The notes under the pieces were generated by a model. That model was given only the letters and a program-made list of their open reading frames with translations, was not told the origin of the DNA and ran no database searches. A stretch of DNA of 64,000 nt from Carettochelys insculpta (lineage: Eukaryota; Chordata; Testudines; Carettochelyidae): the NCBI RefSeq assembly GCF_033958435.1, contig NC_134158.1:9550337-9614336 (forward strand). Reading direction: 5' to 3'. A program made the position numbers and the translations under genes. The stretch's first letter is position 1. Every line of letters starts with the position of its first letter. This document shows positions 5,401 through 63,386 of this stretch, piece after piece.

Positions 5401-5414
5401 AGGACTCTCAGCAT
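2211..5414 (-). CDS. Cholinesterase-like type-B carboxylesterase, paralogue A (probable pseudoenzyme)
   Basis: Seen: two coding exons, 5414-3913 (1502 nt) and 2412-2211 (202 nt), join in frame through AGTGG|GTAAGT and ATGCAG|G to give 567 residues. The start at 5414 lies nine bases after the acceptor CCCTTCCAG. Residues 1-22 form a signal peptide, followed by an Asp6 run. The COesterase fold is recognisable: [21 protein letters not shown], oxyanion hole HGGGY, and paired cysteines. Catalytic Glu347 and His460 are present, but the nucleophile motif reads GQDAG, so Asp220 replaces Ser. Four N-X-S/T sites suggest a secreted glycoprotein. Known: in this family, members without the Ser (neuroligins, glutactin) bind ligands instead of cleaving esters. 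Inferred: hydrolysis is lost but the fold kept, because the frame is open throughout. The donor found after the second exon in B and C is mutated here, so translation runs eight more codons to TGA. A CR1 LINE sits in its first intron. Confidence 0.85.
2755..2945 (-). mobile_element. CR1 LINE 3' end
   Basis: The phrase CTAGGACTGGAAGGGAC, then GTCCAGGCCCCTGCCC and TAACCTGCTCTTAAATATCT, is the reverse complement of the CR1 3' untranslated end. The copy is short and 5'-truncated. It lies in the intron between the two coding exons of paralogue A. Confidence 0.85.
3057..3222 (+). repeat. tRNA-like interspersed repeat, copy 1
   Basis: This ~165-bp sequence is about 90% identical to 55496-55664. Its 3' half looks like a tRNA: TTTAGCTCATGTGGTAGAG resembles an A box and GCGGGTTCTATCCC a B box. 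A third, short 3' end lies at about 2945-2980. It is most likely a tRNA-derived SINE, not a working tRNA gene. Confidence 0.6.
3235..3725 (+). mobile_element. CR1-type LINE 3' part
   Basis: It carries the degenerate end of the ORF (TGGAACTCCTGGCCAGA, AACTAGATAAATTCATGGAG) and the characteristic 3' tail GCACCTGGCGTTGGCC, then GATGGACCTTTGGTCTGACC. It belongs to the same subfamily as the long copy at 5464-7110. It lies within the paralogue A intron. Confidence 0.85.
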
Positions 5415-5463: not shown

Positions 5464-7112
5464 TATGGAGCCTTTCTCCTCTAGGTGAAATTGTGAAATG
5501 TGAAATTGCGGAGTTAACAACAGTGGTTTGTAACCTATCCTTTAAATCCACTTTGGTACCAAATGACTGGAGGACGACCAATATAACACCAATATTTAAA
5601 AAAGGCTCTAGAGGAGACCCTGGCAATTATAGACCGATAAGTCTAACATCAGTACCAGGCAAATTAGTAGAAACACTAGTAAAGAATAAAATTGCAAGGC
5701 ACGTAGAAGAGCACGAATTGTTGGGCAAAAGTCAGCATGGTTTCTGCAGAGGGAAGTCATGTCTAACTAATCTATTAGAATTCTTTGAAGGGGTTAATAA
5801 ACATGCGGACAAGGGGCACCCAGTGGACATAATATACCTAGATTTCCAGAAAGCCTTTGACACGGTCCCACACCAAAGGCTTTTATGTAAATTAGGTGGT
5901 CATGGGATAGGAGGAAAGATCCTTTCATGGATCGGGAATTGGTTAAAAGACAGAAAACAAAGGGTGGGAATAAATGGTAAATTTTCACAATGGAGGAGGG
6001 TAACTAGTGGTGTTCCCCAGGGGTCAGTCCTGGGACCGATCCTGTTCAACTTGTTCATCAATGATCTAGAAAATGAGGTAAGCAGTGAGGTGGCAAAGTT
6101 TGCAGATGACACCAAGTTGTTCAGGACAGTCAAAACCAAAAGGGATTGTGAAGAACTACAAAAAGATCTCAGCAAACTGAGTGATTGGGCAGCAAAATGG
6201 CAAATGAAATTTAATGTGGGTAAGTGTAAGGTAATGCATGTTGGAAAAAAATAACCCAAATTACACGTACTACATGATGGGGTCAAATTTAGCTACGACA
6301 GATCAGGAAAGGGATCTTGGAGTTATAGTGGATAGTTCTCTGAAGACATCCACGCAGTGTGCAGCGGCAGTTAGTAAGGCAAATAGGATGTTAGGAATTA
6401 TTAAAAAAGGGATCGATAATAAGACAAAAGATATCATACTTCCCCTATATAAAACTATGGTACGCCCACATCTTGAGTACTGCATGCAGATGTGGTCTCC
6501 TCACCTCAAAAAAGATATATTGGCATTAGAAAAGGTTCAGAAAAGGGCGACTAAGATGATTAGGGGCTTGGAACGGGTCCCATATGGGGAGAGGCTAGAG
6601 AGACTGGGACTTTTCAGTTTGGAAAAGAGGCGATTGAGGGGCGATATGATAGAGGTATATAAAATCATGAATGGTGTGGAGAAAGTGAATATAGAAAAAT
6701 TATTTACCTTTTCCCATAATACAAGAACTAGGGGACACCAAATGAAATTGATGGGTAGTAGGTTCAAAACTAATAAAAGGAAATTTTTCTTCACACAGCG
6801 CACAGTCAACCTGTGGAACTCCTTGCCCGAGGAGGCTGTGAAGGCCAGGACTCTATTAGGGTTTAAAAAAGAGCTTGATAAATTTTTGCAGGTTAGGTCC
6901 ATAAATGGCTATTAGCCAGGGATAAAGTAGGGTGCCCTGGCCTTCAGTACAAGGGCAGGAGATGGATGGCAGGAGATAAATCACTTGATCATTGTCTTCT
7001 GTTCTCCTTCTCTGGGGCACCTGGCATTGGCCACCGTCGGCAGATGGGATGCTGGGCTGGATGGACCTTTGGTCTGACCCAGTATGGCCATTCTTATGTT
7101 CTTATGTTCTAG
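5464..7112 (+). mobile_element. CR1-type LINE, long copy with reverse transcriptase nearly intact
   Basis: The plus strand encodes most of a non-LTR reverse transcriptase: KKGSRGDPGNYRPISLTSVP, DIIYLDFQKAFDTVPHQRL, GVPQGSVLGPILFNLFINDL and the catalytic FADDT box, to about 6254. The C-terminal part, 6238-6915, includes [20 protein letters not shown] and [11 protein letters not shown] seven-A run at 6244-6251 shifts the frame by one base between the two parts. The 5' end is truncated and no endonuclease is present. The 3' end is a TTCTTATG-type short repeat at about 7095-7110. It was inserted about 40 bp upstream of the splice acceptor of paralogue A, in the opposite orientation to that gene. 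Confidence 0.92.
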
Positions 7113-22079: not shown

Positions 22080-22300
22080 AGGGCAGAACCCAAGAGTCCT
22101 GGCTCCCAGCCCCCCCAGTCTAACCCTTGGACCCCACTGCCCTCCCAGAGCCATTGATAGAACCCAGGAGTCCTGGCTCCCAGCCTCCCCAGTCTAACCA
22201 TTGGACCCCACTGACCTCCCAGAGCCATTGATAGAACCCAGGAGTCCTGGCTCCCAGCCCCTGCCACCCAAACACACTGGACCCCACACCTCTCCCAGAG
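22080..22300 (+). repeat. Three tandem copies of the CCAGGAGTCCTGG unit, 74-bp period
   Basis: TCCTGGCTCCCAGCC recurs at 22097, 22171 and 22245, with conserved CCCAGAGCCATTGATAGAAC between. It lies about 260 bp after the first exon of paralogue B and is related to the 68-bp array in paralogue C. Confidence 0.75.
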
Positions 22301-22384
22301 CCAAGGAAGAGGGGAAATTCAGCTCCCCCTCTACCTGGGAGTGGTTCCCTGTGGCTATGCTGTGGAACGATGCTGGAAACATCC

Positions 22385-25179: not shown

Positions 25180-28100
25180 ATGCTGGGATCTCTCCCCTGC
25201 CTGTTGCTCCTCTCCCTGCTGGGCTCCAGCTCCGGCACCAAAGAAGACACCGTGGTGCTCACCACCAGCGGCCCCATCCGGGGAAAACACCTCCTGGCCG
25301 GCTCCAGCACCGTCATGGCCTTCCTGGGGGTGCCCTACGCCGAGCCCCCCGTGGGAGCCTTGCGTTTCCAGAAGCCAGTTCCCCACCAGGTCTGGAGCCA
25401 CGTCCTGGAGGCCACCAGCTTCGGCCATGCCTGCCACCAGCCTCTGCTCACCGGCTACCCCGATGCCGAAATGTTCTTTGTCAAAACGCCGCAGTCTGAG
25501 AACTGCCTCTTCCTCAACGTCTGGGTGCCCCATCCCCGGCCCCCTGAGCCGGTCCCCGTCCTTGTCTGGATCCACGGTGGGGGGTTTTATATGGGCGCCA
25601 CCTCTGTGGACCTCCACAGTGGCCGCTTTTTAGCCGCCACTGAAAAGGTGATCGTGGCCTCCATGAACTACCGGCTGGGGGCCCTGGGCTTCCTCTCCCT
25701 GCCCCCGGACGCTCCAGGCAACGCTGGCCTGTGGGATCAACAGCTGGCCCTGCGCTGGCTGTGGGACAATGCGGCCGCCTTCGGCGGGGACCCGGCCCGC
25801 TTGATGCTCTTCGGCCAGAGCGCCGGGGCCGCCTCGGTCGGCTTCCACCTCCTCTCCCCGAAGAGCCGCCAGCTGATCGCCCGGGCCGTGCTGCAGAGCG
25901 GAGCCGCCGTGGCCCCGTGGGCTTGGGTGTCAGCCGCGAAGTCCCAGGAGCGAGGCCGGAGGCTGGCCCAGCTGATGGGCTGCCCTCGAGGCAACAATAC
26001 CGCCCTGGTGGGCTGCCTGCTGGGCAAGGAACCCGAGGAGTTCCCCAAGGTGGAGTTCTCCGTCTCGCAAGGCCTGGACGCGGCACAGATACCTTTTGTG
26101 CCAACGCCAGATGGGGATTTCCTCCCTGACACGCCGCCGAGGCTCCTCCAAGACAGGCAGTCCCAGAGCATACCCCTCCTGATGGGCGTCACCGCCAACG
26201 AAGGCTCCTACTTGCTCGGAAGCGCCGTCCCTGGCCTCAACCCGGAGAACGCCAGCTCCATGGGCTGGGATGAGCTGCTGCAGCTGGTGAGGCTGCTGGT
26301 GCCCGAGGCCCCAGAAGACGCGGTCCAGGCTGTGGCAGTGCTGTACAGCCAAGAGGGGGTGGCCCAGGGGGAGGGACGGTACCGGTGGGCTATGGAACAG
26401 ATCCTCGGAGATGTCTTTGTGGTGTGCCCCGTCACCCAGATGGCCACGCGAGAAGCAGCGGCCGGCAGCCCCGTGTACACCTACTACTTCACCCACCGCA
26501 GCAGCCTCTTGTCGTCGGCTGCGTGGACCGGGGTGCCCCACAGCTCCGATCTTCTCTTCACCCTGGGGACCCTGGTGTCCGTAGGAGGAGCCAACCGCAC
26601 CAACACGGCAGCCGAGGAGACGCTGAGCCGCCGGGTGATGGGATACTGGGCGGAGTTCGCCAGGACCGGGTAAGCCAATCTCCCAGAATCCTCTTGTGCC
26701 CCTGAGCCGGATCCCAAAGCTGCCAAGAAGACCCAGTTCAAGGCCATGGCCATGGACGGGTCCCTCTGAAAAAGAGATCGCCTGTTTGGTGAAAGTCCTT
26801 GATCCGGAACGGCACAGATGTCAGGGAGGTAAAATTTGGACCTCCGTGGTCCTTCTTCCCTCCCCAGGAGATTGGCAATCCGAGGGGCTTCCCAGTTCTC
26901 ATTCAAGGAAATAAGTTTTTTAGGTGGCAGGTGATAATCGCAAAGCCCTGCCTGGCCTTTCCCAGCCCTTTCATGCTAACCCAAGGGATGTCTCCCCTGC
27001 AGAGACTATCTGGATGTGGCCACTGAACCATAGCTACATCCTCCTGTGTAGACATGGCCAACACCCCAAGCCATGGTCACCGCATCCACCGCAGCATCCT
27101 TCCACCCTCCATCCTCCAGCTACACTGGGAGAGGGGTCACTACAGCTTACACGGTCAGCTACGGTGGCCCGATTTTCACGCGTAGGCCCAGGCGTAGATC
27201 ATGGTCATTGTTCCTAGGGGCCGTCTTGCTTTAAACAAGAGTGGTGGGCCCATGGCAGCCTTCATAACCGAGGGCAGCCTGCGGCTTCAATTTCCAGAAC
27301 TGGAGACAACTACCATCTTTATAAAGGGCCACCTGAGGCACCACCTTTGTGAGGTGGACGGGTGACAGCAGCCATATTTACTGAGGGCAACCATGCCATC
27401 TAGTGGGGGGGGGGGGGGAAGGAGACAGTAGCCATCTTAACTGAGGGCAGCCTGTGGCTTCAATTCCCAGAACTGGTGATAGAAGCCATCTTTGAAAAGG
27501 GCAACCTGTAGCATCACTTCATGTGAGGAATATAGGAGACAGCCGCCATCTTAACTGAGGGCAGCCTGTGGCTTTCATTTCCAGGAGAGGCCATAGCAGC
27601 CATCTTTGTAAAGGGCAACCTGATGCATCCTTACATGTGCTCAGAACGGGAGGCAGCAGCCATCTTGACTGAGGGCAGCCTGTATCTTCACTCTCAGTGG
27701 GACCAACAAAGGGCGACAGGTGTTTTGGAAAGGCACTAACTGGGCGATGCTTGACCCCTGGGACCGGGAGGTCAGGCACCAGCGAGAGCATGTGGGAGTA
27801 CGTGGGCGTGGTGCTAACCAATCCGGGGCCTGCTGACTGTCCCCTCAGGAGCCCCACAGGGACAGGGGACAGCAAAGGGCAGTGGCCCCGCTTCGACGTC
27901 GTGGAGCAGAACTTTGTCCGCATTGGCATGGAGCCGCTGGCGGTCCAGGGGCCGTTGCCCGCCCGGCACTGCCGTCTCTTGGAATGGCTGCAAGGACAGC
28001 AGCCAAAGTTCACAAGTGAGCATCCGTGGGGTGAGCAGCCCTAGTGGGCAAAGGCCCCTTTGCCCCCGCCACCTCTGACCCACACCATGCCTCAGCCAGA

Positions 28101-31100
28101 TGGGAGCTGGTGCCCCCTCAAGGGCAACCATCCCTTCCCCACCTTCCTCCTCCAAGCTGACCAGTCCCTGCTCTGCACTGGGCCTGGCACTGAGCCAGCA
28201 CCCCGTGAAAGGGGAAGAGCCTCATTTCCGATTCCGCTCTTCCCCTGGGAACCTGCAGCGCTACTATAACTTTAGCACCCTTGTGGCTGCAGGCAGCTCC
28301 GGCCCGGAGAAGGCGCGTGCAGGAACGCAGCAGGGAATATCCCTCCCACCAGGGCCCAAGCTTCAGTGTTTGCACATGTACCACAGTTTGAGCCCCTGGT
28401 AAACTGCATCATGTTCTCCCCCCGGGAGAGAACCCTGCCAGCAAAGCCAAGGGAAGCTGGGCCAGCCCCCTCGAGCCACAGCCCTGAGCAAACATCTGCA
28501 CACCGGAAAAGCACAATGACTATACGAGAGGGAAATAGTTCTTGACCAAGAGGAGAAAACCAACAGGTGGGCACAGAGAAAGGGGGCAGTAAGGCAGGGT
28601 TGGAATCACTTTTCCCTGTAAGCTGAGCACATGGGGAGCTGCCCAGAAGAGCTTCAGGTGCCACCAAGCTGGTTAGCAGAGCACCCACAGCCGGCAGAGC
28701 AGATTTCTGTTTGTGGCGCTCGTCCGCCCATGCCTCAGTGAACAGACCACAATTTATCCCACACACGTGTGCGTCTACACTACAAAAATAACTTGGAAGG
28801 TGCTGACTTGGCAGTTGAGCGTCTACACGCCCCCGACAACGCCGGTCTTTGCCCACGAAAGCGGGTGCTCCAAAGTATCGGTTAGTCTATAAGGTGCCGC
28901 AGGATTTCTGGTGGATCCCCTTTATCGAAGTTAAACCTCGAAGAAGGGCCCTGCTCCGTTCCCGGGAATGGAGTAAGGACTTCGAAGTTGGGCTTTTTGT
29001 AACATCCGTGGGCGTGGCTACGGGAGGAACTAACTTCGAAGTGAGGGGAAACGTGTGCAGACTCTCTGCTGGCTACATCCCAGGTGACTTTGAAGTTAGT
29101 CCCTAGTGTAGCCACACCCATGGATGGAAAAAAATAGCAGGGACCCTGGGCAGGGGTTGAGCCAATTGTTATGTAACGGCAGGTAGATGTGGAGACTCTG
29201 AACATCCACGATTTAAACCCAGCTCGGGAACTTCCCCCGCAAAGTCTCCAGGCTCAGCAGCGTTCCCTGCAGGAGGAGCACCGGGGTGGCCACGCAGGAC
29301 AGCGTCACGAGCCGCCCAGCTGATGAGCAGAGTGCGCCCACAGCCAGCAGCCGGTGCTTCTACTGGTGGTGCGCAGGGGCCCATGCCGCGGTGCAGAGAA
29401 CATAACTTATTCCACACCTGGATAGAAAAAATTAGAGGGAAGCCAGAAGAGCCCATCCAGGTCCTGCAGCATAAAGGGACGCGAGAGCAGCGGGTCTAGG
29501 GACAGCGCCCCCCAATTGGGCCCCCATCCTGCTCGCTGCAGCACAGCGCCCCCTAGTGGAGCCAGCCTGGACTGACAGGGAACAGCGCCCCCTGCTGAGC
29601 CCCCTCCCTGATCCCTGCAGCACAGCGCCCCTCAGTGGAGCCAGCCTGGACTGCCAGGGAACAGAGCCCCCTGCTGAGCCCCCACCCCGACCCCTGCAGC
29701 ACAGCGCCCCCTAGTGGCACCACCCTGGACTGCCAGGGAACAGAGCCCCCTGCTGAGTCCCCACCCAGATCCCTGCAGCACAGCGCCCCCTAGTGGGACC
29801 AGCCTGGACTGCCAGGGAACAGCGCCACCTACGGAGCCCCCATCCTGATCCCTGCAGCACAGCGCCCCCTAGTGCCCCACTGGGACCAGCTCTGCCTGCC
29901 AAGGGACAACACCCCCTGCTGAGCCCCCACCCCGAGCTCTGCAGCACAGTGCCCCCTAGTGGAGCCAGCCTGGACAGCCAGGGAACAGCGCCCCCTGCTG
30001 AGCCCCCACCCCGAGCCCTGCAGCACAGCGCCCCCCAGTGGAGCCAGCCTGGACTGCCAGGGAACAGCGCCACCTACGGAGCCCCCATCCTGATCCCTGC
30101 AGCACAGCGCCCCCTAGTGGAGCCAGCCTGGACTGCCAGGGAACAGCGCCCCCTGCTGAGCCCCCACCCCGAGCCCTGCAGCACAGCGGCCCCTAGTGGA
30201 GCCAGCCTGGACAGCCAGGGAACAGCGCCCCCTGCTGAGCCCCCACCCTGATCCCTGCAGCACAGCGCCCCCTAGTGGGACCAGCCTGGATTGCCAGGAA
30301 ACAGCGCCCCCTGCTGAGCCCCCACCCTGATCCCTGCAGCACAGCGCCCCCTAGTGGGACCAGCCTGGATTGCCAGGGAACAGCGCCCGCTGCTGAGCCC
30401 CCACCCCGACCCCTGCAGCACAGCGCCCCCTAGTGGAGCCAGCCTGGACTGCCAGGGAACAGCGCCCCCTGCTGAGCCCCCACCCCCGAGCCCTGCAGCA
30501 CAGCGCCCCCTAGTGGGACCAGCCTGGACTGCCAGGGAACAGCGCCCCCTGCTTAGCCGCCACCCCGATCCCTGCAGCACAGCGCCCCCTAGTGGCACCA
30601 GCCTGGACTGCCAGGGAACAGCGCCTCCTGCTGAGTCCCCACCCCGATCCCTGCAGCACAGCGCCCCCTAGTGGGACCAGCCTGGATTGCCAGGGAACAG
30701 CGCCCCCTGCTGAGCCCCCACCCCCGAGCCCTGCAGCACAGCGCCCCCTAGTGGGACCAGCCTGGACTGCCAGGGAACAGCGCCCCCTGCTGAGCCCCCA
30801 CCCCGAGCCCTCCATCACAGCCCCCCCTAGTGGAGCCAGCCTGGACTGCCAGGGAACAGCGCCCCCTGCTGAGCCCCCACCCCGAGCCCTCCATCACAGC
30901 GTCCCTCAGTGGAGCCAGCCTGGACTGCCAGGGAACAGCGCCCCCTGCTGAGCCCCCACCCCGAGCCCTGCAGCACAGCGCCCCCCAGTGGAGCCAGCCT
31001 GGACTGCCAGGGAACAGCGCCCCCTGCTGAGCCCCCACCCCGACCCCTGCAGCACAGCGCCCCCCAGTGGGGCCAGCCTGGACTGCCAGGGAACAGCGCC

Positions 31101-32659
31101 CCCTGCTGAGCCCCCACCCCGAGCCCTGCAGCACAGCGCCCCCTAGTGGGACCAGCCTGGATTGCCAGGGAACAGCGCCCCCCTGCTGAGCCCCCACCCC
31201 GAGCCCTCCATCACAGCGCCCCCTAGTGGGACCAGCCTGGATTGCCAGGGAACAGCGCCCCCTACTGAGCCGCCATCCTGATCCCTGCAGCACAGCGCCC
31301 CCTAGTGGGACCAGCCTGGACTGCCAGGGAACAGCGCCCCCTGCTGAGCCCCCACCCCGAGCCCTGCAGCACAGCGCCCCCTAGTGGGACCAGCCTGGAT
31401 TGCCAGGGAACAGCGCCCCCTACTGAGCCGCCATCCTGATCCCTGCAGCACAGCGCCCCCTAGTGGGACCAGCCTGGACTGCCAGGGAACAGCGCCCCCT
31501 GCTGAGCCCCCACCCCGAGCCCTGCAGCACAGCGCCCCCCCAGTGGAGCCAGCCTGGACTGCCAGGGAACAGCGCCCCCTGCTTAGCCGCCATCCTGATC
31601 CCTGCAGCACAGCGCCCCCTAGTGGGACCAGCCTGGACTGCCAGGGAACAGCGCCCCCTGCTGAGCCCCCACCCCCGAGCCCTGCAGCACAGCGCCCCCT
31701 AGTGGGACCAGCCTGGACTGCCAGGGAACAGCGCCCGCTGCTGATCCCCCACCCCGAGTCCTGCAGCACAGCGCCCCCTAGTGGCACCAGCCTGGACTGC
31801 CAGGGAACAGCGCCCCCTGCTGAGGCCCCATCCTGATCCCTGCAGCACAGCGCCCCCTAGTGGGACCAGCCTGGACTGCCAGGGAACAGCGCCCCCTGCT
31901 GAGCCCCCACCCCGAGCCCTGCAGCACAGCGCCCCCTAGTGGGACCAGCCTGGACTGCCAGGGAACAGCGCCCCCTGCTGAGCCCCCACCCCGAGCCCTT
32001 CAGCACAGCGCCCCCTAGTGGGACCAGCCTGGACTTCCAGGGAACAGCGCCCCCTACTGAGCCGCCATCCTGATCCCTGCAGCACAGCGCCCCCTAGTGG
32101 GACCAGCCTGGACTGCCAGGGAACAGCGCCCCCTGCTGAGCCCCCACCCCGAGCCCTGCAGCACAGCCCCCCCTAGTGGGACCAGCCTGGACTGCCAGGG
32201 AACAGCGCCCCCTACTGAGCCGCCATCCTGATCCCTGCAGCACAGCGCCCCCTAGTGGGACCAGCCTGGACTGCCAGGGAACAGCGCCCCCTACTGAGCC
32301 GCCATCCTGATCCCTGCGGCACAGCGCCCCCTAGTGGGACCAGCCTGGACTGCCAGGGAACAGCGCCCCCTACTGACAGCCCCCCCCTTCCTGCACCTAG
32401 GATTCAGCTGCCAGTTCCCCCCTCCGACCCCCGCTTTCAGGCAGCCCAAGCCCCGCTCAGGCCGATCGTCTCCCTGCGGCGCGTCACCTCGCTCGCCCTT
32501 TGTCTCGCAGGGAGCAGCTTCAGACTTCGGGGCGCAGGAGGCGGCGGGCGGCGAGCTGAGCGATTCCAGCCCCCGGCTGGGGGGGTCCCTGCCGATGAGA
32601 CCATCCAGGCGCCTACGGCAGCTGCTGACACGTTCATCAGCCCGCTCGGGAATCCCTGA
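25180..32659 (+). CDS. Cholinesterase-like type-B carboxylesterase, paralogue B (triad intact)
   Basis: Seen: three coding exons, 25180-26669, 27849-28015 and 32511-32659, join in phase (2, then 1) to give 601 residues. The start lies eight bases after the acceptor CCCTTCCAG. A signal peptide covers residues 1-20. The fold markers are [21 protein letters not shown], oxyanion HGGGF, nucleophile GQSAG (Ser214), Glu341 in ANEGS and His454 in GVPHS. The conserved disulfide cysteines and sites such as NNT and NRT are present. The middle exon of exactly 167 nt, after a single ~1.5 kb exon, is the BCHE layout. The residue at the choline-binding Trp position is Phe (EMFF). Known: family members hydrolyse carboxylic or choline esters outside the cell or in the secretory pathway. 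Inferred: an active secreted esterase with substrate unknown and probably weak for choline. The last exon gives a Gly/Arg/Pro-rich tail with no tetramerisation helix and no clear lipid-anchor signal. AATAAA follows at 32681. Confidence 0.85.
27240..27720 (+). repeat. GCCATCTT tandem repeat (~57-bp period) in intron 2 of paralogue B
   Basis: GCCATCTT or close variants occur at 27311, 27371, 27431, 27485, 27545, 27599 and 27659. Spacings alternate near 54 and 60 bp, so the true unit is a dimer of about 114 bp: one half reads AACTGAGGGCAGCCTGTGGC and the other AAGGGCAACCTG. The copy at 27543 reads GCCGCCATCTT, a full YY1 consensus in reverse sense. Confidence 0.75.
27849..28015 (+). CDS. 167-nt exon of esterase paralogue B
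   Basis: The acceptor is CCCCTCAG at 27841-27848 and the donor ACAA|GTGAGC is at 28016. It encodes QWPRFDVVEQNFVRIGMEPL and the conserved Cys in ARHCRLLEWLQGQQ. Length and phases equal those of the paralogue C exon. Confidence 0.8.
28612..28775 (+). repeat. Repeat family C copy
   Basis: CCCTGTAAGCTGAGCACATG, GAGCACCCACAGCCGGCAGA and ACAATTTATCCCACACACG match the family. It lies in intron 3 of paralogue B. Confidence 0.65.
28776..29122 (+). mobile_element. Family D element carrying a nested family B piece
   Basis: It starts with GTCTACACTACAAAAATAAC and ends with CCCTAGTGTAGCCACACCC. TTCGAAGT motifs lie at about 28981 and 29034. The family B arm (about 28845-28915: TCTTTGCCCACGAAAGCGGG, AGTCTATAAGGTGCCGCAGG) interrupts it. 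Confidence 0.6.
29300..29445 (+). repeat. Repeat family C copy
   Basis: GCCGCCCAGCTGATGAGCAG, GCGCCCACAGCCAGCAGCC and AACTTATTCCACACCTGGAT, then AAAAATTAGAGGGA, match the family. It directly precedes the 79-bp array. Confidence 0.7.
29500..32378 (-). repeat. 79-bp minisatellite with two CTCF-like motifs per unit
   Basis: About 36 tandem units of 79 bp fill ~2.9 kb of intron 3 of paralogue B. A unit alternates CAGCGCCCCCTAGTGGGACC, then AGCCTGGACTGCCAGGGAA, with CAGCGCCCCCTGCTGAGCCC, then CCACCCCGAGCCCTGCAG. On the minus strand each unit carries CCACTAGGGGGCGC, which fits the CTCF core CCASYAGRKGGCRS at 14 of 14 positions, and TCAGCAGGGGGCGC, which fits at 13 of 14. A few units carry variants (CCCAGTGG, CCCTCAGTGG). 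The period is not a multiple of three, and open frames through the array appear on both strands, as expected for a low-stop GC-rich repeat. The motif match is seen; binding is inferred. Confidence 0.9.
32511..32659 (+). CDS. Terminal coding exon of esterase paralogue B
   Basis: The acceptor TTTGTCTCGCAG ends at 32510. The phase (two bases completing a codon) fits the previous exon exactly. It encodes a tail with RLRGAGGGGRRAERFQPPAG, ending FISPLGNP before TGA at 32657-32659. It is unlike known cholinesterase C-terminal peptides. The short distance to AATAAA supports it as the true last exon. Confidence 0.65.
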
Positions 32660-32680
32660 CCCCCGGCTGCCTCCAGGGGC

Positions 32681-32686
32681 AATAAA
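32681..32686 (+). terminator. Polyadenylation signal of esterase paralogue B
   Basis: AATAAA lies 22 bases after the predicted stop and is followed by TTTTGGGGCTG. Cleavage is expected near 32700. Confidence 0.7.
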
Positions 32687-32704
32687 GCATTTTGGGGCTG
32701 CAAA

Positions 32705-33984: not shown

Positions 33985-34800
33985 CAGCTCCAGTGTCAAG
34001 AACAGGGGAGAGAACCCAGGAGTCCTGGCTCCCAGCCCCTCTGCTCCAACCCACCAGACCCTTCCCAGAGCTGGGGAAAGAACCCAGGAGTCCTGCCCCC
34101 CAGCCCTTCTGCTCCAACGCACCAGACGCCTCCCAGAGCTGGGGAGAGAACCCAGGAGTCCTGGCTCCCAGCCCCTCTGCTCCAACCCACCAGATGCCTC
34201 CCAGAGCTGGGGAGAGAACCCAGGAGTCCTGGCTCCCAGCTCCTCTGCTTCAACCCACCCGAACCCTCCCAGAGCTGGGGAGAGAACCCAGGAGTCCTGG
34301 CTCCCAGCCCCTCTGCTGCAACCCACCCAACCCCTCCCAGTGCTGGGGAAAGAACCCAGGAGTCCTGGCTCCCAGCCTCTCTGCTGCAACCCACCAGACC
34401 CTTCCCAGAGCTGGGGAAAGAACCCAGAAGTCCTGGCCCCCAGCCCCTCTGCTGCAACCCACCAGATGCCTCCCAGAGCTGGGGAGAGAACCCAGGAGTC
34501 CTGGCTCCCAGCCCCTCTGCTCCAACCCACCCTACCCCTCCCAGCGCTGGGGAAAGAACCCAGGAGTCCTGGCTCCCAGCTCCTCTGCTTCAACCCACCA
34601 GACCCTTCCCAGAGCTGGGGAAAGAACCCAGAAGTCCTGGCCCCCAGCTCCTCTGCTTCAACCCACCAGACCCTTCCCAGAGCTGGGGAAAGAACCCAGG
34701 AGTCCTGGCTCCCAGCTCCTCTGCTTCAACCCACCAGACCCCTCCCAGTGCTGGGGAAAGAACCCAGGAGTCCTGGCCCCCAGTCACCACACCGCCGCTC
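33985..34800 (-). repeat. 68-bp minisatellite in intron 1 of paralogue C
   Basis: The core GAACCCAGGAGTCCTGGCTC recurs with an exact 68-bp period: TCCTG at 34023, 34091, 34159, 34227, 34295, 34363 and 34431, and on to about 34771, about 12 units. Between cores lie CCAGCCCCTCTGCTCCAACC and CCCTCCCAGAGCTGGGGA. The unit is the reverse sense of a dispersed tRNA-like repeat (GGAGCCAGGACTCCTGGGTT). Units differ by only a few bases. Confidence 0.9.
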
Positions 34801-35530: not shown

Positions 35531-38500
35531 ATGCTGGGCCTCCTCCCTGCGCTCCCCTGCCTGCTGATCCTCTCCCTGCCCAGCCCTGGCGCTGGCGCCG
35601 ATGATGATGGCACCGTGGTGCTCACCACCAGCGGCCCCATACGGGGGAAGCGCCTCCCGGGCGGCTCCAACACCGTGACGGCCTTCCTGGGGGTGCCCTA
35701 CGCCGAGCCCCCCGTGGGCGCCTGGCGCTTCCAGAAGCCAGTTCCCCACCGGCCCTGGAGCCGCGTCCTGGAGGCCACCAGCTTCGGCCACGCCTGTGTC
35801 CAGAGTCCGCTCACTGGTATGCCCATAGTTGATGTGTGGATGCCCCGAATGCCGCAGTCCGAGGACTGTCTCTTCCTCAACCTCTGGGTGCCCCATCCCC
35901 AGCCCCCTGAACCGGTCCCCGTCCTCGTCTGGATCCACGGCGGGGGGTACATGATAGGTAGCAGCTGCGTCAGCCTCTACGATGGCCGCTCCTTAGCCGC
36001 CACCGAGAAGGTGATCGTGGCCTCCATGAACTACCGGCTGGGGGCCCTGGGCTTCCTCTCCCTGCCCCCGGCCGCCCCAGGCAACGCGGGCCTGTGGGAT
36101 CAACAGCTGGCCCTGCGCTGGCTGTGGGACAATGCGGCCGCCTTCGGCGGGGACCCAGCCCGCTTGATGCTCTTCGGCCAGAGCGCCGGGGCCGCCTTGG
36201 TCGGCTTCCACCTCCTCTCCCCAAAGAGCCGGCAGCTGATCGCCCGGGCCGTGCTGCAGAGCGGAGCCGCTGTGGCCCCGTGGGCTTGGGTGCCACCTGC
36301 CACGGCCCAGGAGCGAGGCCGGAAGCTGGCCCAAGTGATGGGTTGCAGTGAAGGCAACGACACGGCCCTGGTGGGCTGCCTGCAAGGGATGGACCTCAAG
36401 GAATTCCCCAAACAAGAGCTCTTGGTCTTGGACCACAAGGGGCTATTTTCCATCGCCTTTGTGCCAACGCTGGATGGGGATTTCCTCCCTGACATTCCTT
36501 CGAGGATGCTGCACGCTGGGCCCCGCCAGCCTCTGCCCATCCTAACTGGCTTCACTGCCAACGAAGGGACCTTCCTGTTGAAATTCAGCCCTCTTGGCTT
36601 CAGCTTGGAGAACATCAGCAACATCAACCAGGAGCATCTGCTGCAGGTGGTCAGGCTGACACTGCCTGGGACTCCAGAAAACACCCTCCTGGCCCTGGCT
36701 GAACGGTACAGCCAGGAGAGGCGGGACGAGAACCGGTTCTTACAGGCCATGGACCATATCATCAGTGACCACAGCTTCGTGTGCCCGGTCGCCGAGGTGG
36801 CTGGGCAAGCGGCAGAGGCTGGCAGCCCCGTGTACACCTACCACTTTGCCCACCGCTCTCTCCACTTGCCTCTGCCGGAGTGGGTGGGGGTGCCCCATGG
36901 CGCCGAGGTGCCCTACCTCTTTGGCACACTACAAGTCATGCAAGGAGCCAATTACACAGTCCCGGAGGCTGATGCGAGCCTGAGTCGCAGGCTGATGCGG
37001 TACTGGCGGAGTTTGCCAGGAGTGGGTAAGGGAACCCCCCAGACCTCGCTTGTGCCCCTGAACCCGAACAGCCCCCAGGGTCAAACCATGCAAGCGAGGG
37101 TCCCCCTGGAGCCAGTGGGCCAGAACATGGTCTACCAGCCTCGTCTCCGAAAAGCTCCTTTTCCAATATATCTGGTATGTTTGTAGAAAGAGCCCAGACT
37201 AGAGGTTCAACCTGTAGCTAAGGGTATGTCTGGGCCACATCAACCTGGTCACGGTTGACGGACAACTTGTACAACACCTTGTACAATATTGCAAGTAGTA
37301 GAAGACCATCAACCTCTACAGAGACGGCCAGATTAGCTAGAATTGCATAGCTACCCACCTAGAGTAGACCAACCCTTAAACTGCAGCCACTGGCTGGTTT
37401 CTATGCCCCCATCTAGCCCCCCAAAAACCTTCCAATTCTTCCTTTTCCCATCTCCTCCCTGCAAAAAAGACAAAAGAAAGTCTTTGCGCGCCCCCCCCCC
37501 CCCATCATTGTTCTCAGAAATCTATTACAAATTGTGTCTGAGATGACCCAAGGTAGACCCATTCACTCCCAGGTTAGGGCGAGCCACTTTCCCTCTTGTC
37601 TCACCTGCCCAAGTTCTTGCCCGTTCCACCTCATTCATGTCTGTGCAGTCATCCATCCAACGGGGCACAGACTGTGAGAGCAAACATAGGGAAACCCCCA
37701 ATTGAGCAGCTTTGCAGCTTGACTCCCAATGACCCCTGCATGGCTCTCCTTGGATGGCTATGTAAATTAGCCCTGGAGCTCCTCCCACCTCCCCATATCA
37801 GTCCAGAGATTGGGAAGAAGGTAGCCTCCAGTCCCCTGCTTCCCCCCCTCAGGGGGAGACAAAGAACTGGGGTTACCACAGGCTGCCTCAGTCATCTTCA
37901 ACACAGGGCCAACATCACTTGGGTTCACCTTGGAGGCAGGCCAGCGGGAAGCCATCTTAACTGTGGGCAACCTCTGGCTTCTCCTTCCTTGGGAACATTG
38001 GGAGGTGCTGGCCATCTTTTCGACAGGCAGCCTGCCTTGCCAGTATGACAGCCATGATAACTCTGGGCAGCCTGTAGCTTCAATCCCTTTGAGACCATTA
38101 GAAAGAAGCGTCCATCTTTAGTGAGGGAAGCATATGGCTTTTCCCTGGGTGGAAGGACACCCAGCAGCAGATATCTTAACTGAGGGCAAAGTCTGGCTTT
38201 AGCCTCCTTCCCACCCCAGTGTCTCCTCTCTGGGCTCTCATGTTTCCACACTTCTATACATATCATATGATACATATCTCATGGACAGGACCTCCAGAGG
38301 ACATTGTGGCCGGCCTCTTACCCTCACAGCTAGACCTATCACCATCCCCGACAGATTATTTTTTTAAATCTAGTTGCCCCAGACTGCTAAAGCCCCCTCT
38401 CAAGGATTGAACACAGAACGCAGGCCGTGGGAAAGTAGCAGCCTGGTGAATAAGCCCATTGACCTGCTAGACCCAAGGTTGTGCGCTCAAGCCTGGAAGG

Positions 38501-41500
38501 GGCCCTTTAGGGATCTGGGGCAAATAAATCTGAAAACCAGTCCTGGTGGTGATAGGCCCTGCTATAGGGCAGAGGACTGACTTGATAACCTCTGAAGAGC
38601 TCTACAAGATTGGCATATCTCCCTGGGCTTGCAAGGCTGATGCTCTAACCATGGAACTGTGCTGCCTGCATGGTCTGAGAGCACCACCACTTTCCCCAAG
38701 GGTAGTATGTGGTACTGTACAGAGAGACACCCTGAGTAATAATCTGTCAAGGAGGAGGTGACAATTTTGACGCCTGCATTTGGGGCTCAGCCTATTCTCC
38801 TACCATCCATGGGACATGTTGAATTTCCCCTCAGGAGCCCCACAGGGTCGGGAAGCCAGGAGGAGGTGTGGCCTCTCTACAACTCCACTGAGCACAACTT
38901 CGCCCACCTCGCCACCGAGCCGCTCCGGGTGGAGGTCACGTCGCCTGTCCAGGACTGCGGCTTCCTGGCTTCGCTGCTGACAGAGGAGCCCAGCCCCGCA
39001 GGTGAGCATTGAGAAGGGAAAGAACTCAGCTCGTGCTTCCTGGGCCAACCAGGTCCTCCAACCTGGGGCAAGGTTAGAGTGGGCGCCTTCTAGGGGGGTG
39101 CTGTTCCCTGCACACTGCAGCCAGCCAGTCTTCTAGAGCAGGGGTCAGCAAACTTATGTTGGGCCCCGCTTTTTGGTCCTACCTTCCCCGCAACCTAGGA
39201 TGCAGCTGGGGGCGCGTGCTGGCCAGGGGCTCTTCCTGGCCGCAGAGGTGGCACAAGGGGCCTGGGACCACTGTGGACCCCATGTGCCATGCCAGGACTC
39301 TCCCCAGCTGGCCCCGTCTCCCGCGGCCGGGAACCAGCCGCCTGGGCCCAGCAGCCAGGCAGGTGCCACCGGTACACTGATTGGCTCCTCTCCGCCCCAC
39401 CCCGCGTTGTCAGGCCTCTGAGGCAGCGGCAGAGGGCTGGCAATGCAGCAGAAGCCGGGGTCGGAAGAATCCCGAGCAGTGTTACAGAAAAGGACCTGGG
39501 AGTTGTAGTGGATGAGAAGCTGGACGTGAGTCGACAGTGTGCCGGTGTAGTAGCCAAGAAGGCTAATGGCATATTAGGTTGCATCAAGAGGAGCGTTGCC
39601 AGTAGATCCAGAGAAGTGATCGTTCCTCTTTGTTCGGCTTTGGTGAGGCTGCATCTGGAGTACTGTGTCCAGTTCTGGGCCCCCAGTTACAGGAAGGATG
39701 TGGAGACACTGGAGAGGGGCCAGCGAAGGGCGACCAAAATAATTCGGGGGCTGGAGCATATGACTTATGAAGAAAGGCTGAGGGAATTGGGACTGTTTAG
39801 TCTGCAGAAGAGAAGACTGAGGGGGGGACTTGATAACAGCCTTCAACTCACTGAAGGGAGGCTGCAAAGAGGCTGGAGAGAGGCTGTTCACAGTGGTCAT
39901 GGATGGCAGAACACGGAACAATGGTCTCAAGTTGCGGTTGGGAAGGTCCAGGTTGAACATGAGGAAAAACTTTTTCACTAGGAGGGTGGTGAAGCATTGG
40001 AATGGTCCACCCAGGGCAGTGGGGGAGTCTCCATCCCTGGAGGTGTTTGAGTCTCACCTCGACAAAGCCCTGGCGGGGCTGATCTGATGGGTTTGGTCCT
40101 GCTTAGAGCAGGGGGCTGGACTTGGTGGCTTGTTAGGTCTCTTCCAGCTCTATTGTACTACGACAACATCCACATGCACAGAAATTTCGGTGAGGCTCCT
40201 AGGGAAGAAAAAAGTAAGAAAATGAGTCTGTAGAATGTCAGCCCTGGGCTAGTCCCTCGCCAGGCCAGCGTGATTGGGTCCCAGCTTTCGGCTCGTGGGC
40301 GAACACTCGTAAGAGGGACTCTAAACGCCCATTAAAAATCCATGTGAACATCTCGGAGAGGTCCCTGGGGCTCCTAACGCCGGGAAGAAGCAGCAGCCGG
40401 CAGTGCTGCTTTGGAAAGGTGAGCGAACCTTGGGTTGGGCAGAGTTAAAGGCTGGGGGCAGTCTGGGTCCGTGAGCGGGAGGGAGGGTTCAAATCTGGTG
40501 GCGGGTTGGGTCCGTGGGTGGCGGGGTCAGGCTGCTGCAGGCTGGGGTTGTGGGGCCGGCAGGGGGTCAGGCTGCGGGGGTCTGGGTGTGGGGCTGGCAG
40601 GGAGGTCTGGCTGTGGGGGTCTGGCTGAGGGGCCAGCAGGGGGGTCTGGGTTCTGGCTGCGGGCCAGCAGAAGGGTCTGGCTGTGGGGCCAGCAGAGGGG
40701 TCTGGCTGTGGGGTTCAGGCTGTGGGCCAGCGGAGGGGTCTGGCTGAGGGGCCAGCAGCGGGGTCTGGGTTCTGGCTGCGGGCCAGCAGAGGGGTCTGGC
40801 TGTGGGGCCAGCAGAGGGGTCTGGCTGTGGGGTTCAGGCTGTGGGCCAGCGGAGGGGTCTGGCTGAGGGACCAGCAGGGGGGTCTGGCTGCAGGGTTCAG
40901 GCTGCCGGCCGGCAGAGGTGTCTGGCTGTGGGGCCGGCAGGGGGGGCTGGCTATGGGGTTCAGGCTGCGGGCTGATGGAGGGGTCTGGCTGCAGGGTTCA
41001 GGCTATGAGGCTGACAGAGGGGTCTGGCTGCGGGGTTCAGGCTGCAGGCCGGCAGGGGGTTCTGGCTATGGAGCCGGCAGAGGGGTCTGGCTGTGGGGCC
41101 AGCAGGGAGGTCTGGCTGCGGGGTTCAGGCTGTGGGCAGGTGGAGGAGTCTGGCTGCAGCACGTTGGGGCTGCGGGGCTGGCTGGGGGTGGTCAGACTAC
41201 GGGGGGGTTGGAGCTGCGGGGAGGGGGTTACACTCATATCAGCAGGAGAGTTCACTCGTCGAGCGAATTAAGGTGGGTATGTGTGCCCCTCCTTTAACTG
41301 AGTGCTCAGAAATAAACTCCTGGTTTAAGGAGGAATTCATGTGTACCTGCAGCAAAAACAGTCCCAGGTGTCAACACTTTCAATGAGCCAGAGAGTGCTT
41401 CGTACACCCAAAGCCTTTTTATCTGGTTGGGCCAAGAGCCTGTCGCACCCCCAACCAAACACCCAGCAGCCCCCCTGCTGTTTAAAGAGCCCGCCCCCCT

Positions 41501-44820: not shown

Positions 44821-44905
44821 GCCACCCCAGTCCCTGCAGCACAGCACCCCCTAGTGCCCCACTGGCTTCCAAGGGACAGCACCCCCTCCCATCTCCCCCA
44901 GCAGC
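44820..44905 (-). repeat. Lone relic of the 79-bp CTCF-motif unit
   Basis: CCCTGCAGCACAGCACCCCC, TAGTGCCCCACTGG and CCAAGGGACAGCACCCCCTC match a variant unit at about 29850-29930. It sits 13 kb from the array, on the other side of paralogue C. Confidence 0.6.
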
Positions 44906-60421: not shown

Positions 60422-63386
60422 ATGGCTACCACCAACCCCCTGGAGAACCTACAGGTAGAGGCCAGCTGCTCCGTCTGCTTGGAGTACCTGAAGGACCCGG
60501 TCATCATCGACTGTGGCCACAACTTCTGCCGGGTCTGCATCACCCGCTGGTGGGAGGAGCTCAACCGGGACTTCCCCTGCCCCGTCTGCCGCAAGACCTT
60601 CCGCCACCGCACCCTGAAGCCCAACCGGCAGCTGGGCAACATGGTGGAGATCGCCAAGCAGCTGCAAGCCACCAAGCGCAAGGTGCGGGACGAGAGCCTC
60701 TGCAGGAAGCACAACGAGGCCCTCAACCTCTTCTGCAAGGAGGACCAGGAGGCCGTCTGCCTGGTGTGCGAAATCTCCCACGACCACCGCTGCCACACCG
60801 TGGTGCCTCTGGACGACGCCTCCCAGGAGTACAAGGTGGGAGGCTGCCCGGAAGGGGACGCCTGGCCCCTTCCCTGGGGCCAGCGCTCTCCGGTCCTTGA
60901 GCTGGAGAAGGTCTTGTGGGTCCCCTTTAGCCGTTGTCTTCAGAGCTAGCCAAGGTTCTGAACCCTTCACCCCCGTTCGTACCTCGCTCCCAGGTACTGC
61001 TTTCACGCTGCACCTCTTGCGAGCTGGTCATCCTCCACCGCCTTTCCCCAGTGCCTTCTGTGTGCCCTGACGGGCAAGCCACCTCTGCCACAGGTCCCTG
61101 GGAAAGAATCTCTTCCAGCTGTGTGGGGGAGACCCCAGAAGTCCTAGCGGACAGGTGGAGGAGTACAGAACCCATGAGGTCTGGTGCAGGGGAGCAGAGG
61201 GGAGGGGAGAAGAGAGGAGGAGCCAGGACTCCTGGGTTCCACCCTTCATTCCAGGAGGGGAGAGGGGTCAGGCGTGTGGGAGCAGTGCAGGCCGGGAGCC
61301 AGGGCTCCTGGGTTCCACCCTTCGTTCTAGGAGGGGAGAGGGTCTGGCGCAGTGGTTCCCAACCTCTTCGGTAACACAACACACTTCACACGCAACACAC
61401 AAGCAATCCCAGGGCACAGCCGCTTTTCTCAGCTGAATCGAATGCTCCTCGGCACCCCGTTTCCCGACGCTGCGTTGGGGTTGCGGCCTGACGGGGGGGG
61501 GTTGCGACACAGCACCGCGTGCGACCAGCGAAACAAGGCTCCAGCGCGCTCCCGTTTCCGCCCCAGTGCAGGACGCACCGTGGGAGACAGCGAGCGCAGG
61601 CCTCGTTGAGTGAACAAGCAACCGCTGGAAGCAGCTCCCCTCCCCGCTGGCCTGCTGGAGCCCAGATGGGACATTTAAACCACGTCCCTCTCCCTGGCCA
61701 CAGCAGGGAGCGAGGCAGCCTGGCGGGGCCGGGAAGCAGCATTTCAGCCCCCCACCCACCCCCCTGTGGGGTCGGCGTTGCCCCTCTCAGCAGCTCTGCC
61801 AAGAGCCACCCCTGGGGGGAATTGACCAACCCAGAGCCAGCTGGGACTCCAGCATCCCCAGCCGAGGCGGGGTCGTCAGTTTCCCCTCCAGGGTGGCTCT
61901 GCCAAGAGCAGGGCAGGGAGGGGAAATTGACGATGGTTTGTGGCACACTTTGACCATTCTCAGGGTGCACCTGTGTACCACGGCACGCTGCTTGAAAACC
62001 ACTGGTGTGGTGTGTGGGAACAGCAGGGCTGGGAGCCAGGACTCCTGGGTTCTCTCTCTGGCTCTGAGAGGGGAGATGGGTCTGTTGGGTTAGAGCAGGG
62101 GGCCGGGAGCCCGGACTCTTGGGTTCTGTCCCTGGCTGTGGGAGGGCAGTGGGGTCTAGTGGTTAGAGCAGGGGGCTGGGAGCCAGGACTCCTGGGTTCC
62201 CTCCCCAGTTCTGTGAGGAGAATCAACTCTAGCGGTCAGATGAGGTAGAACTGAGACTGGACTATCCACAGGGGCCTGATCCCCGACTGTGCCACCCATG
62301 GCCCCATCCAAACCCCCCGGGAACTGCCCACCTGGTGCCTTGCAGATCTGAGCCTGCCTCTTGCGCCCAGCCCCTGCTCGTTACGTGTCCGTCCTCTTCC
62401 CAGGAGAAGCTGCAGCAGTGCCTGGCGCCGCTGGAGCGGAAGCTGCAGGACATTGCCTACTGCAAGTCCCAGGAGGAGAAGAAACCTGGCGAGCTGAAGG
62501 CAGGTGGTGCTGGGGGCTTGGTCGGCCCTCACGCGGGCTAGGTCCTGGCAGAGCTGCGGGGTCCTCGGTATGGGGTGCTCTGAGCTCTGGCCCCAGCGTG
62601 AAGCTGGGGGGCGCTGAGCCACTGGAATCTTTGAGCGGTGTCAGAAACCCCGACCGGGCAATAGGGGCGAAAATCTCCTGTGGCTTATCTGAGGTCAGAG
62701 CAGCTCGGTTCCGGGTCTGTCCTGCCTCCCTGTTCCCCCACACGGGCTGGTTTCGGGTGGATCCCGAGCTCAGGGCTGTAGCCTGTCCTGAAGCTTTCTC
62801 TGGTGGGCTCACGGCCGCCACGCCCCAGAGGTGGCTGCATTTTAGCAGCTGGTGGAGCAGTCTCTGTATGCACTCTGCAAAGCAAAGAACCACCTCTGCC
62901 CGGTTATCGACAGACCCCTCCTGGCCTCCTGCTGCACTCAGCCCCTCTCTGTGGAGATACCACACACGGACACGCCTGGGCTAATCCCTTTGGCTGGATC
63001 TGGGACTCCTGGGCTGGGGATACCCTCTTCCCCCTTTCTTTGTGGCCAGATCTGGGGGGGGAGACCCATGCTCACCCCAACCCCGGGGGTGGATCCGGGG
63101 CTAGAGGGGACCCGTGGGTGGGTGGCCCCTGCTGATTCTCCCCGTGCCCCTGCAGCGGAAGGTGGAGAGCCGACGGCAGCTGATCCTGAGCGAGTTCGAG
63201 GAGCTGCACCAGTTCCTGGAGGGGGAGCAGCAGGTGCTGCTCCGGCGCCTGGAGGAGGAGGAGAAGGACATCCTGCAGAAGCTGAAGGACAACGTGGCCC
63301 AGCTGGCCGAGCAGCGCCTCTCCCTCCACCAGCTCGTCACCGAGGTCGAGGAGAAGTGCCTGCAGTCTGGCATTGAGATGCTCAAG
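60422..63386 (+). CDS. TRIM/RFP-type E3 ubiquitin ligase, 5' part (RING, B-box, coiled coil)
   Basis: Seen: exon 1, 60422-60835 (138 codons), has a start in strong context (GACACCATGG) just after the acceptor GGCTTGGCAG. It encodes a C3HC4 RING at C16, C19, C31, H33, C36, C39, C53 and C56, and a B-box at about residues 93-127 (CRKHNEALNLFCKEDQEAVC, then EISHDHRCH). Exon 2, 62404-62499, is 96 nt and exon 3, 63156-63386, is 231 nt; both are coiled coil rich in Glu, Leu and Gln. The sizes 96 and 231 nt are the canonical ones for TRIM genes of the TRIM39/TRIM27/butyrophilin class. All boundaries are phase 0. The donors of exons 2 and 3 are GC, not GT. The following short exons and the PRY-SPRY exon lie past the window. 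Inferred role: RING-dependent ubiquitin transfer with target unknown. Confidence 0.85.
61350..62004 (+). mobile_element. hAT-type non-autonomous element in TRIM intron 1
   Basis: The ends CAGTGGTTCCCAACC and CAGTGGTTTTCAA (right end, reverse complement) match hAT termini. Flanks GTCTGGCG and GTGTGGTG agree at six of eight positions, a worn 8-bp duplication. It is related to 41903-42541. Confidence 0.65.
62025..62215 (+). repeat. Three tandem CCAGGACTCCTGG SINE-like units
   Basis: GGAGCCAGGACTCCTGGGTT at about 62031 and 62179 flank a diverged GGAGCCCGGACTCTTGGGTT at about 62106. GTCTAGTGGTTAGAGCAGGG precedes the last. The period is about 74 bp, as in intron 1 of esterase paralogue B. Two further copies lie at 61211 and 61300. 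Confidence 0.7.

Follow-up and report, generated by a model that had tools for sequence, protein, structure and literature searches.

CTCF-type motifs recur across the Carettochelys insculpta genome in one-direction tandem arrays, and the minisatellite at 29536–32376 of the window (the whole 64-kb stretch of DNA analysed here), which corresponds to C22:9579872–9582712 in the assembly, is one member of this genome-wide set. The 14-bp CTCF core is present in 1,899 copies in the genome, against 4 copies of its reversed sequence; head-to-tail pairs of cores at distances of 35–65 bp number 595, against 0 for the reversed control, and the same genome search yields no divergent pairs, that is, none in the divergent order of the two inverted ones. 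Three copies of GCGCCCCCT in a row at 34–64 bp are seen 1,274 times, versus 22 times for the reversed sequence, 99 times (in 12 loci) for a 9-mer with the same bases in permuted order, and 156 times for the reversal of the latter; base composition alone is ruled out by these controls. The first-pass annotation had described the array as a single feature; it is real, but it is not alone, and the recurrence of such arrays throughout the genome is of greater interest than the single array. The titles and abstract openings of the literature searched mention no CTCF-motif minisatellites in turtles.

The array in the window was delimited by TRF, a matrix scan, unit alignment, and genome placement. 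TRF, applied to the 64-kb window, gives a 79-bp unit repeated 35.8 times with 91% match, and splitting the minisatellite at its start motif produces 36 units, in agreement with the approximately 36 tandem copies noted at first. The unit size falls within the range of minisatellites and VNTRs (~10–100 bp); since 79 is not divisible by three, a coding repeat is rejected. Each unit contains one box A (CCACTAGGGGGCGC type, 29544–32340) and one box B (TCAGCAGGGGGCGC type, 29583–32379), which makes 36 boxes of either type and 72 CTCF-like boxes in total, all on the minus strand. The gaps between consecutive boxes are 39–41 bp in 70 of 71 cases and 47 bp in the remaining one.

The boxes were scored with the JASPAR MA0139.1 matrix, assuming a uniform background and a threshold of p<1e-5. 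Box A passes the threshold in 29 of 36 units, with a median score of 18.0, and matches CCASYAGRKGGCRS at 14 of 14 positions in 26 of them; box B passes in 24 of 36 (only one reaching p<1e-6), has a median score of 14.7, and matches at 13 of 14 positions in 25 units. Hence, the 14/14 and 13/14 matches that had been ascribed to the units hold for 26 and 25 of the 36 boxes, respectively, and the predicted array of about 70 sites in one direction stands as a set of motifs, while half of them, the B boxes, are clearly weaker. Altogether the array has 53 minus-strand and 0 plus-strand sites at p<1e-5, fewer than the approximately 70 high-scoring sites expected; the other part of that expectation, few sites elsewhere, is borne out by only three sites in the remaining window (42886, plus strand; 1381 and 44842, minus strand). 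To the left of the array, the matrix scan of the window finds no plus-strand sites at this threshold. A greedy count leaves 32 of the 53 sites if a spacing of at least 60 bp is required. With the GC content of the window as background, the numbers of array sites are 28 at p<1e-5 and 59 at p<1e-4, the decrease presumably being due to the loss of box B. The longer CAGCGCCCCCTAGTGG is found in 47 copies in the 2.18-Gb genome, 25 of them in this array, while the reversed control has 0 copies; therefore, the array motif does not result from chance.

Three cholinesterase-like loci were identified in the window, their coordinates being the limits of BLAST matches and open reading frames. Gene A is on the minus strand, with exons at 5414–3912 and 2438–2262; just upstream of its exon, at 5601–6240 (plus strand), there is a reverse transcriptase domain (RVT_1, E 6e-36), probably a LINE fragment. 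Gene B is on the plus strand, with a large coding exon (COesterase) at 25180–26670, 74.7% identical to the Pelodiscus protein P0001, and a last coding exon found at 27850–28044, which ends with an in-frame stop; its best-scoring protein relatives are acetylcholinesterase-like proteins of turtles (75% identity for the first and 76% for the third). Gene C, on the same strand, has a large coding exon at 35531–37036 and a second one at 38836–39033. The array begins 1.5 kb downstream of the gene B stop codon and ends 3.2 kb before the first of these gene C exons; hence, by the coding evidence, it is intergenic. Its initial assignment to an esterase intron is thus corrected, an intron of the esterase coding region being ruled out by the exon mapping, while its placement between esterase paralogues is retained. 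To the right of the array (window 32500–32700), an AATAAA signal near 32682 on the plus strand follows a splice-acceptor-like stretch near 32510; an unannotated 3′ exon is therefore possible there, and the array may lie in an unannotated 3′ non-coding intron.

A TGGCAGTCCA stretch precedes box A, and in 19 of the 36 units its 30-base context is an exact match; by eye, it resembles the published upstream motif of CTCF (PMC12885311), which is read by fingers 9–11 and sits 2–7 bp from the core, compared with ~8 bp here. Lamprey, chicken, and human have almost the same core and upstream motifs for CTCF (PMC5504073); hence, the CTCF matrix should hold for the turtle as well. Orthologues of CTCFL have been reported in turtles (PMC7471279). 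The gene for CTCF itself was not located, the genome matches listed being other zinc-finger exons. Binding to the motifs is predicted, and we consider it likely.

We propose, with about even confidence, that the array is a minisatellite binding CTCF (possibly CTCFL) and acting as a one-way cohesin barrier between the paralogues. A good fraction of the units would be occupied by CTCF and, in germ cells, perhaps by CTCFL/BORIS; since the boxes are so closely spaced (39–41 bp), neighbours may hinder one another. Many sites of the same direction would together form a strong one-way stop for cohesin. As the 3′ side of the minus-strand motif faces lower coordinates, the array would halt cohesin arriving from the side of gene B, thus setting gene B apart from gene C. 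We further infer that tandem duplications around sites of the CTCF type may have given rise to such arrays repeatedly, more often near chromosome ends, as the counts on C1 given below suggest.

Banks of CTCF sites are known in several other settings. At the Pcdh and Igh loci, CTCF sites are spread over gene clusters. There, tandem directional sites among paralogues serve as insulators (PMC7087399); unlike the turtle array, they form no minisatellite. DXZ4/Dxz4, which directs long-range contacts, is a tandem bank of CTCF motifs that in mouse all point the same way; human DXZ4 is X-linked and has a 3-kb unit and two motif sets in opposite orientation (PMC5899087, PMC3218863). The turtle array has in common with DXZ4-type macrosatellites a one-direction bank of CTCF motifs; in place of their kilobase unit, it has a 79-bp unit with two sites, and it lies between esterase genes. 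The RE1/CTRL1 element of HSV-1 is a short CTCF-bound repeat and, like the turtle array, has many predicted sites (14 in the RE1 construct), but it is viral and consists of CT-repeat units of another sequence (PMC2789235). Repeats of variable copy number linked to CTCF are represented by the VNTRs of SLC6A4, with units of 16–23 bp (PMC2848977), and by the tRNA VNTR at 1q23.3, with a unit of 7.3 kb (PMC4041453); their sequences are unlike the turtle unit.

In its motif layout, the turtle array resembles the published human tandem repeats bound by CTCF and BORIS. This class comprises 171 repeats co-bound by CTCF and CTCFL/BORIS, with at least fourfold ChIP enrichment for both proteins; most of these are simple tandem repeats that contain duplicates of a shorter CTCF signature inside a 40-nt window, forming staggered clusters (PMC5007689). 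The turtle array is also a simple tandem repeat with CTCF signatures staggered within ~40 nt, and the prevailing distance between its boxes is close to the 40-nt staggering of the human repeats. Two differences are that binding to the human repeats has been shown by ChIP (PMC5007689), whereas the turtle arrays are known from sequence, and that in the turtle, unlike in the human class, the perfect 14-bp core is found in arrays with unrelated spacers, which are concentrated at one end of C1.

Outside the window, similarity to a two-unit query is seen at many places: there are at least 239 genome matches, many of them beyond the window array. Each of the 20 loci fetched around such matches contains two or more CTCF sites (p<1e-5) in a tandem array, a proportion that gives no rate since the loci were chosen by similarity; a single one of them (L021) has sites on both strands. 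Of eight loci selected among the listed hits of the 9-mer pattern, seven have at least four sites at p<1e-5. Locus L033 (C1:380778000–380779999) shows 0 sites at p<1e-5 and 11 at p<1e-4; it is a 53-bp array of 23 copies, in which a degenerate CTCF core stands after TGCAGTGCC, a sequence resembling the published upstream motif. At least two loci of the same listing (C1:381006588 and C2:1565857) are plain C-rich repeats that lack the other part of the CTCF core. The array on C31, which extends from 13711768 to ~13722031 (loci L029, L022, and L030), consists of a 40-bp monomer, covers ~10.3 kb, and contains 35, 125, and 16, in total 176, plus-strand sites at p<1e-5; it exceeds the window array by far in size. 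At C2:5674876–5719340, one 44-bp CTCF-motif array recurs every ~5.7–7 kb across 45 kb, an arrangement like that of a macrosatellite or of genes clustered in tandem.

The 79-bp unit is a dimer whose halves have diverged: one matches the C31 40-bp monomer at 36 of 40 bases, and the other shows a weak match, still above that of shuffled sequences (P 0.0015). More generally, 12 families are distinguished among 18 array spacers at z≥4, and therefore the arrays seem to have arisen repeatedly; one family, with five members, unites the box B spacer and the C31 monomer. A single dispersed family is not enough as the sole source, given these 12 families. Some deep kinship between spacers is possible, since 17 of 153 spacer pairs have p<0.05 (7.65 expected) and ten spacers carry TGCAG or CTGCA in common.

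Within the window array, the boxes keep their CpG in 66 of 72 cases (33 of 36 for box A, and the same number for box B), versus 22 of 35 for the CpG in the spacer; the spacer losses go along with one unit subtype, and hence are not independent. Box cores are less variable than spacers, but not significantly so (permutation P 0.16, with 26 of 79 circular shifts performing as well), and thus no selection on the boxes is demonstrated. This lack of significant constraint agrees with a neutral origin: a GC-rich minisatellite, formed by duplication of a stretch that happened to include the core, would have spread through slippage, to which its G-rich strand contributed, and CTCF binding, if any, would be inconsequential; we consider such an origin somewhat doubtful. 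The minus strand of the array indeed contains 20 non-overlapping G-quadruplex patterns, and tandem repeats lacking CTCF motifs occur frequently: sampling 15 pieces of 5 kb (75 kb) from C1, C2, C6, C8, C22, C29, C30, and C31 retrieved 15 repeats with a period of at least 20, along with 5 solitary CTCF sites. However, 0 of these 15 repeats have two or more sites, in a sample that is small and includes one piece from the C1 end, and the same core is common to the 18 spacers of 12 families. The distribution on C1 also speaks against the neutral account. This contig has 45 perfect cores at 25 loci, of which 18 are solitary and 7 are same-strand arrays that hold 27 cores. In the last 5 Mb, 6 of 8 core loci are arrays (binomial P 8e-6, even taking as reference the 8.4% of sampled bases that belong to repeats), versus 1 of 17 elsewhere on C1 (Fisher P 0.001), the bias towards the chromosome end having been counted on C1 only.

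The same distribution bears on a mutational explanation. If sites of CTCF/cohesin, or of topoisomerase, are points of breakage or fork stalling that repeatedly seed tandem duplications, the arrays would record past breakage and would represent no selected insulator. The diversity of spacer families speaks for this explanation, as do the head-to-tail layout without divergent pairs and the strong bias of arrays to the end of C1, along which solitary cores are spread; on the other hand, away from that end core loci are seldom arrays, so that regional growth of repeats should be at least equally important. We consider this explanation unlikely; it is not exclusive, however, and is compatible with a CTCF-binding barrier.

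Base preferences next to the core point to a further candidate. At position 3 of the matrix, C is found in 12 of 16 arrays or boxes compared with 5 of 20 solitary cores (Fisher P 0.006), its frequency in the JASPAR matrix being 6%; at position 18, T is found in 16 of 16 and 10 of 20, respectively (Fisher P 0.0008). The comparison covers 16 of the 18 spacers, the C31 monomer (of the box B spacer family) and the array at C1:380.78 Mb (with its degenerate core) having been omitted; the 16 motifs partly share families, and so not all of them are independent. Outside the searched core, the array motifs are therefore more uniform than the solitary ones, which does not fit plain CTCF binding, as the latter would not predict it. 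Either the arrays are of old common ancestry, or a longer sequence is favoured by the underlying protein or process.

The protein in question might be another zinc-finger protein, e.g., PRDM9 at recombination hot spots or a finger protein silencing repeats, that reads CCCAGCAGGGGGCGCTS, which contains the CTCF core. Array motifs do have common bases beyond this core that are often absent from solitary cores; many zinc-finger gene matches are found on the same contigs as arrays, and there is a PRDM9-type SSXRD match at C30:15765886. Among the matches listed, zinc-finger genes on array contigs are located at C22:0.7–9.5 Mb and C6:122–125 Mb; a finger exon is situated 51 kb from the SSXRD match, with no connection between the two established. 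The finger arrays of PRDM9 turn over fast, whereas here many divergent arrays have one motif in common, and we consider this possibility quite improbable.

Returning to CTCF as the reader of the arrays, a broader view may be tentatively advanced, which we regard as possible, with less than an even chance. In this turtle, and perhaps in turtles generally, CTCF-type sites near chromosome ends and on small chromosomes would have given birth to arrays repeatedly, so that a large share of the best cores would now reside in one-direction minisatellites, exemplified by 27 of 45 cores on C1 and by the 176 sites of the C31 array. These would constitute a new class of copy-number-variable one-way barriers, read by CTCF/CTCFL or by a related protein preferring CCCAGCAGGGGGCGCTS. 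If bound, the arrays would provide a natural dose series of one-way CTCF sites, with which one may ask how many sites in succession make a full cohesin barrier and whether genes nearby respond to the copy number. As arrays seem to have been born repeatedly around one core, a connection of CTCF sites with tandem duplication also becomes directly testable in long reads. Liver Hi-C and HiFi data have been produced for the Carettochelys insculpta assembly (PMC10960847).

Two further repeats were observed in the window. A solitary decayed copy of the unit is located at 44822–44887 on the minus strand; both of its boxes have GCACCCCCT instead of GCGCCCCCT, with GCA for GCG, which is consistent with CpG loss. 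A different minisatellite family (AACCCAGGAGTCCTGGCTCCCAGCC), in which no CTCF site reaches p<1e-5, is present at 34005–34783, 22085–22303, and 62026–62223, and units similar to it are also seen in the fetched loci L011 and L017.
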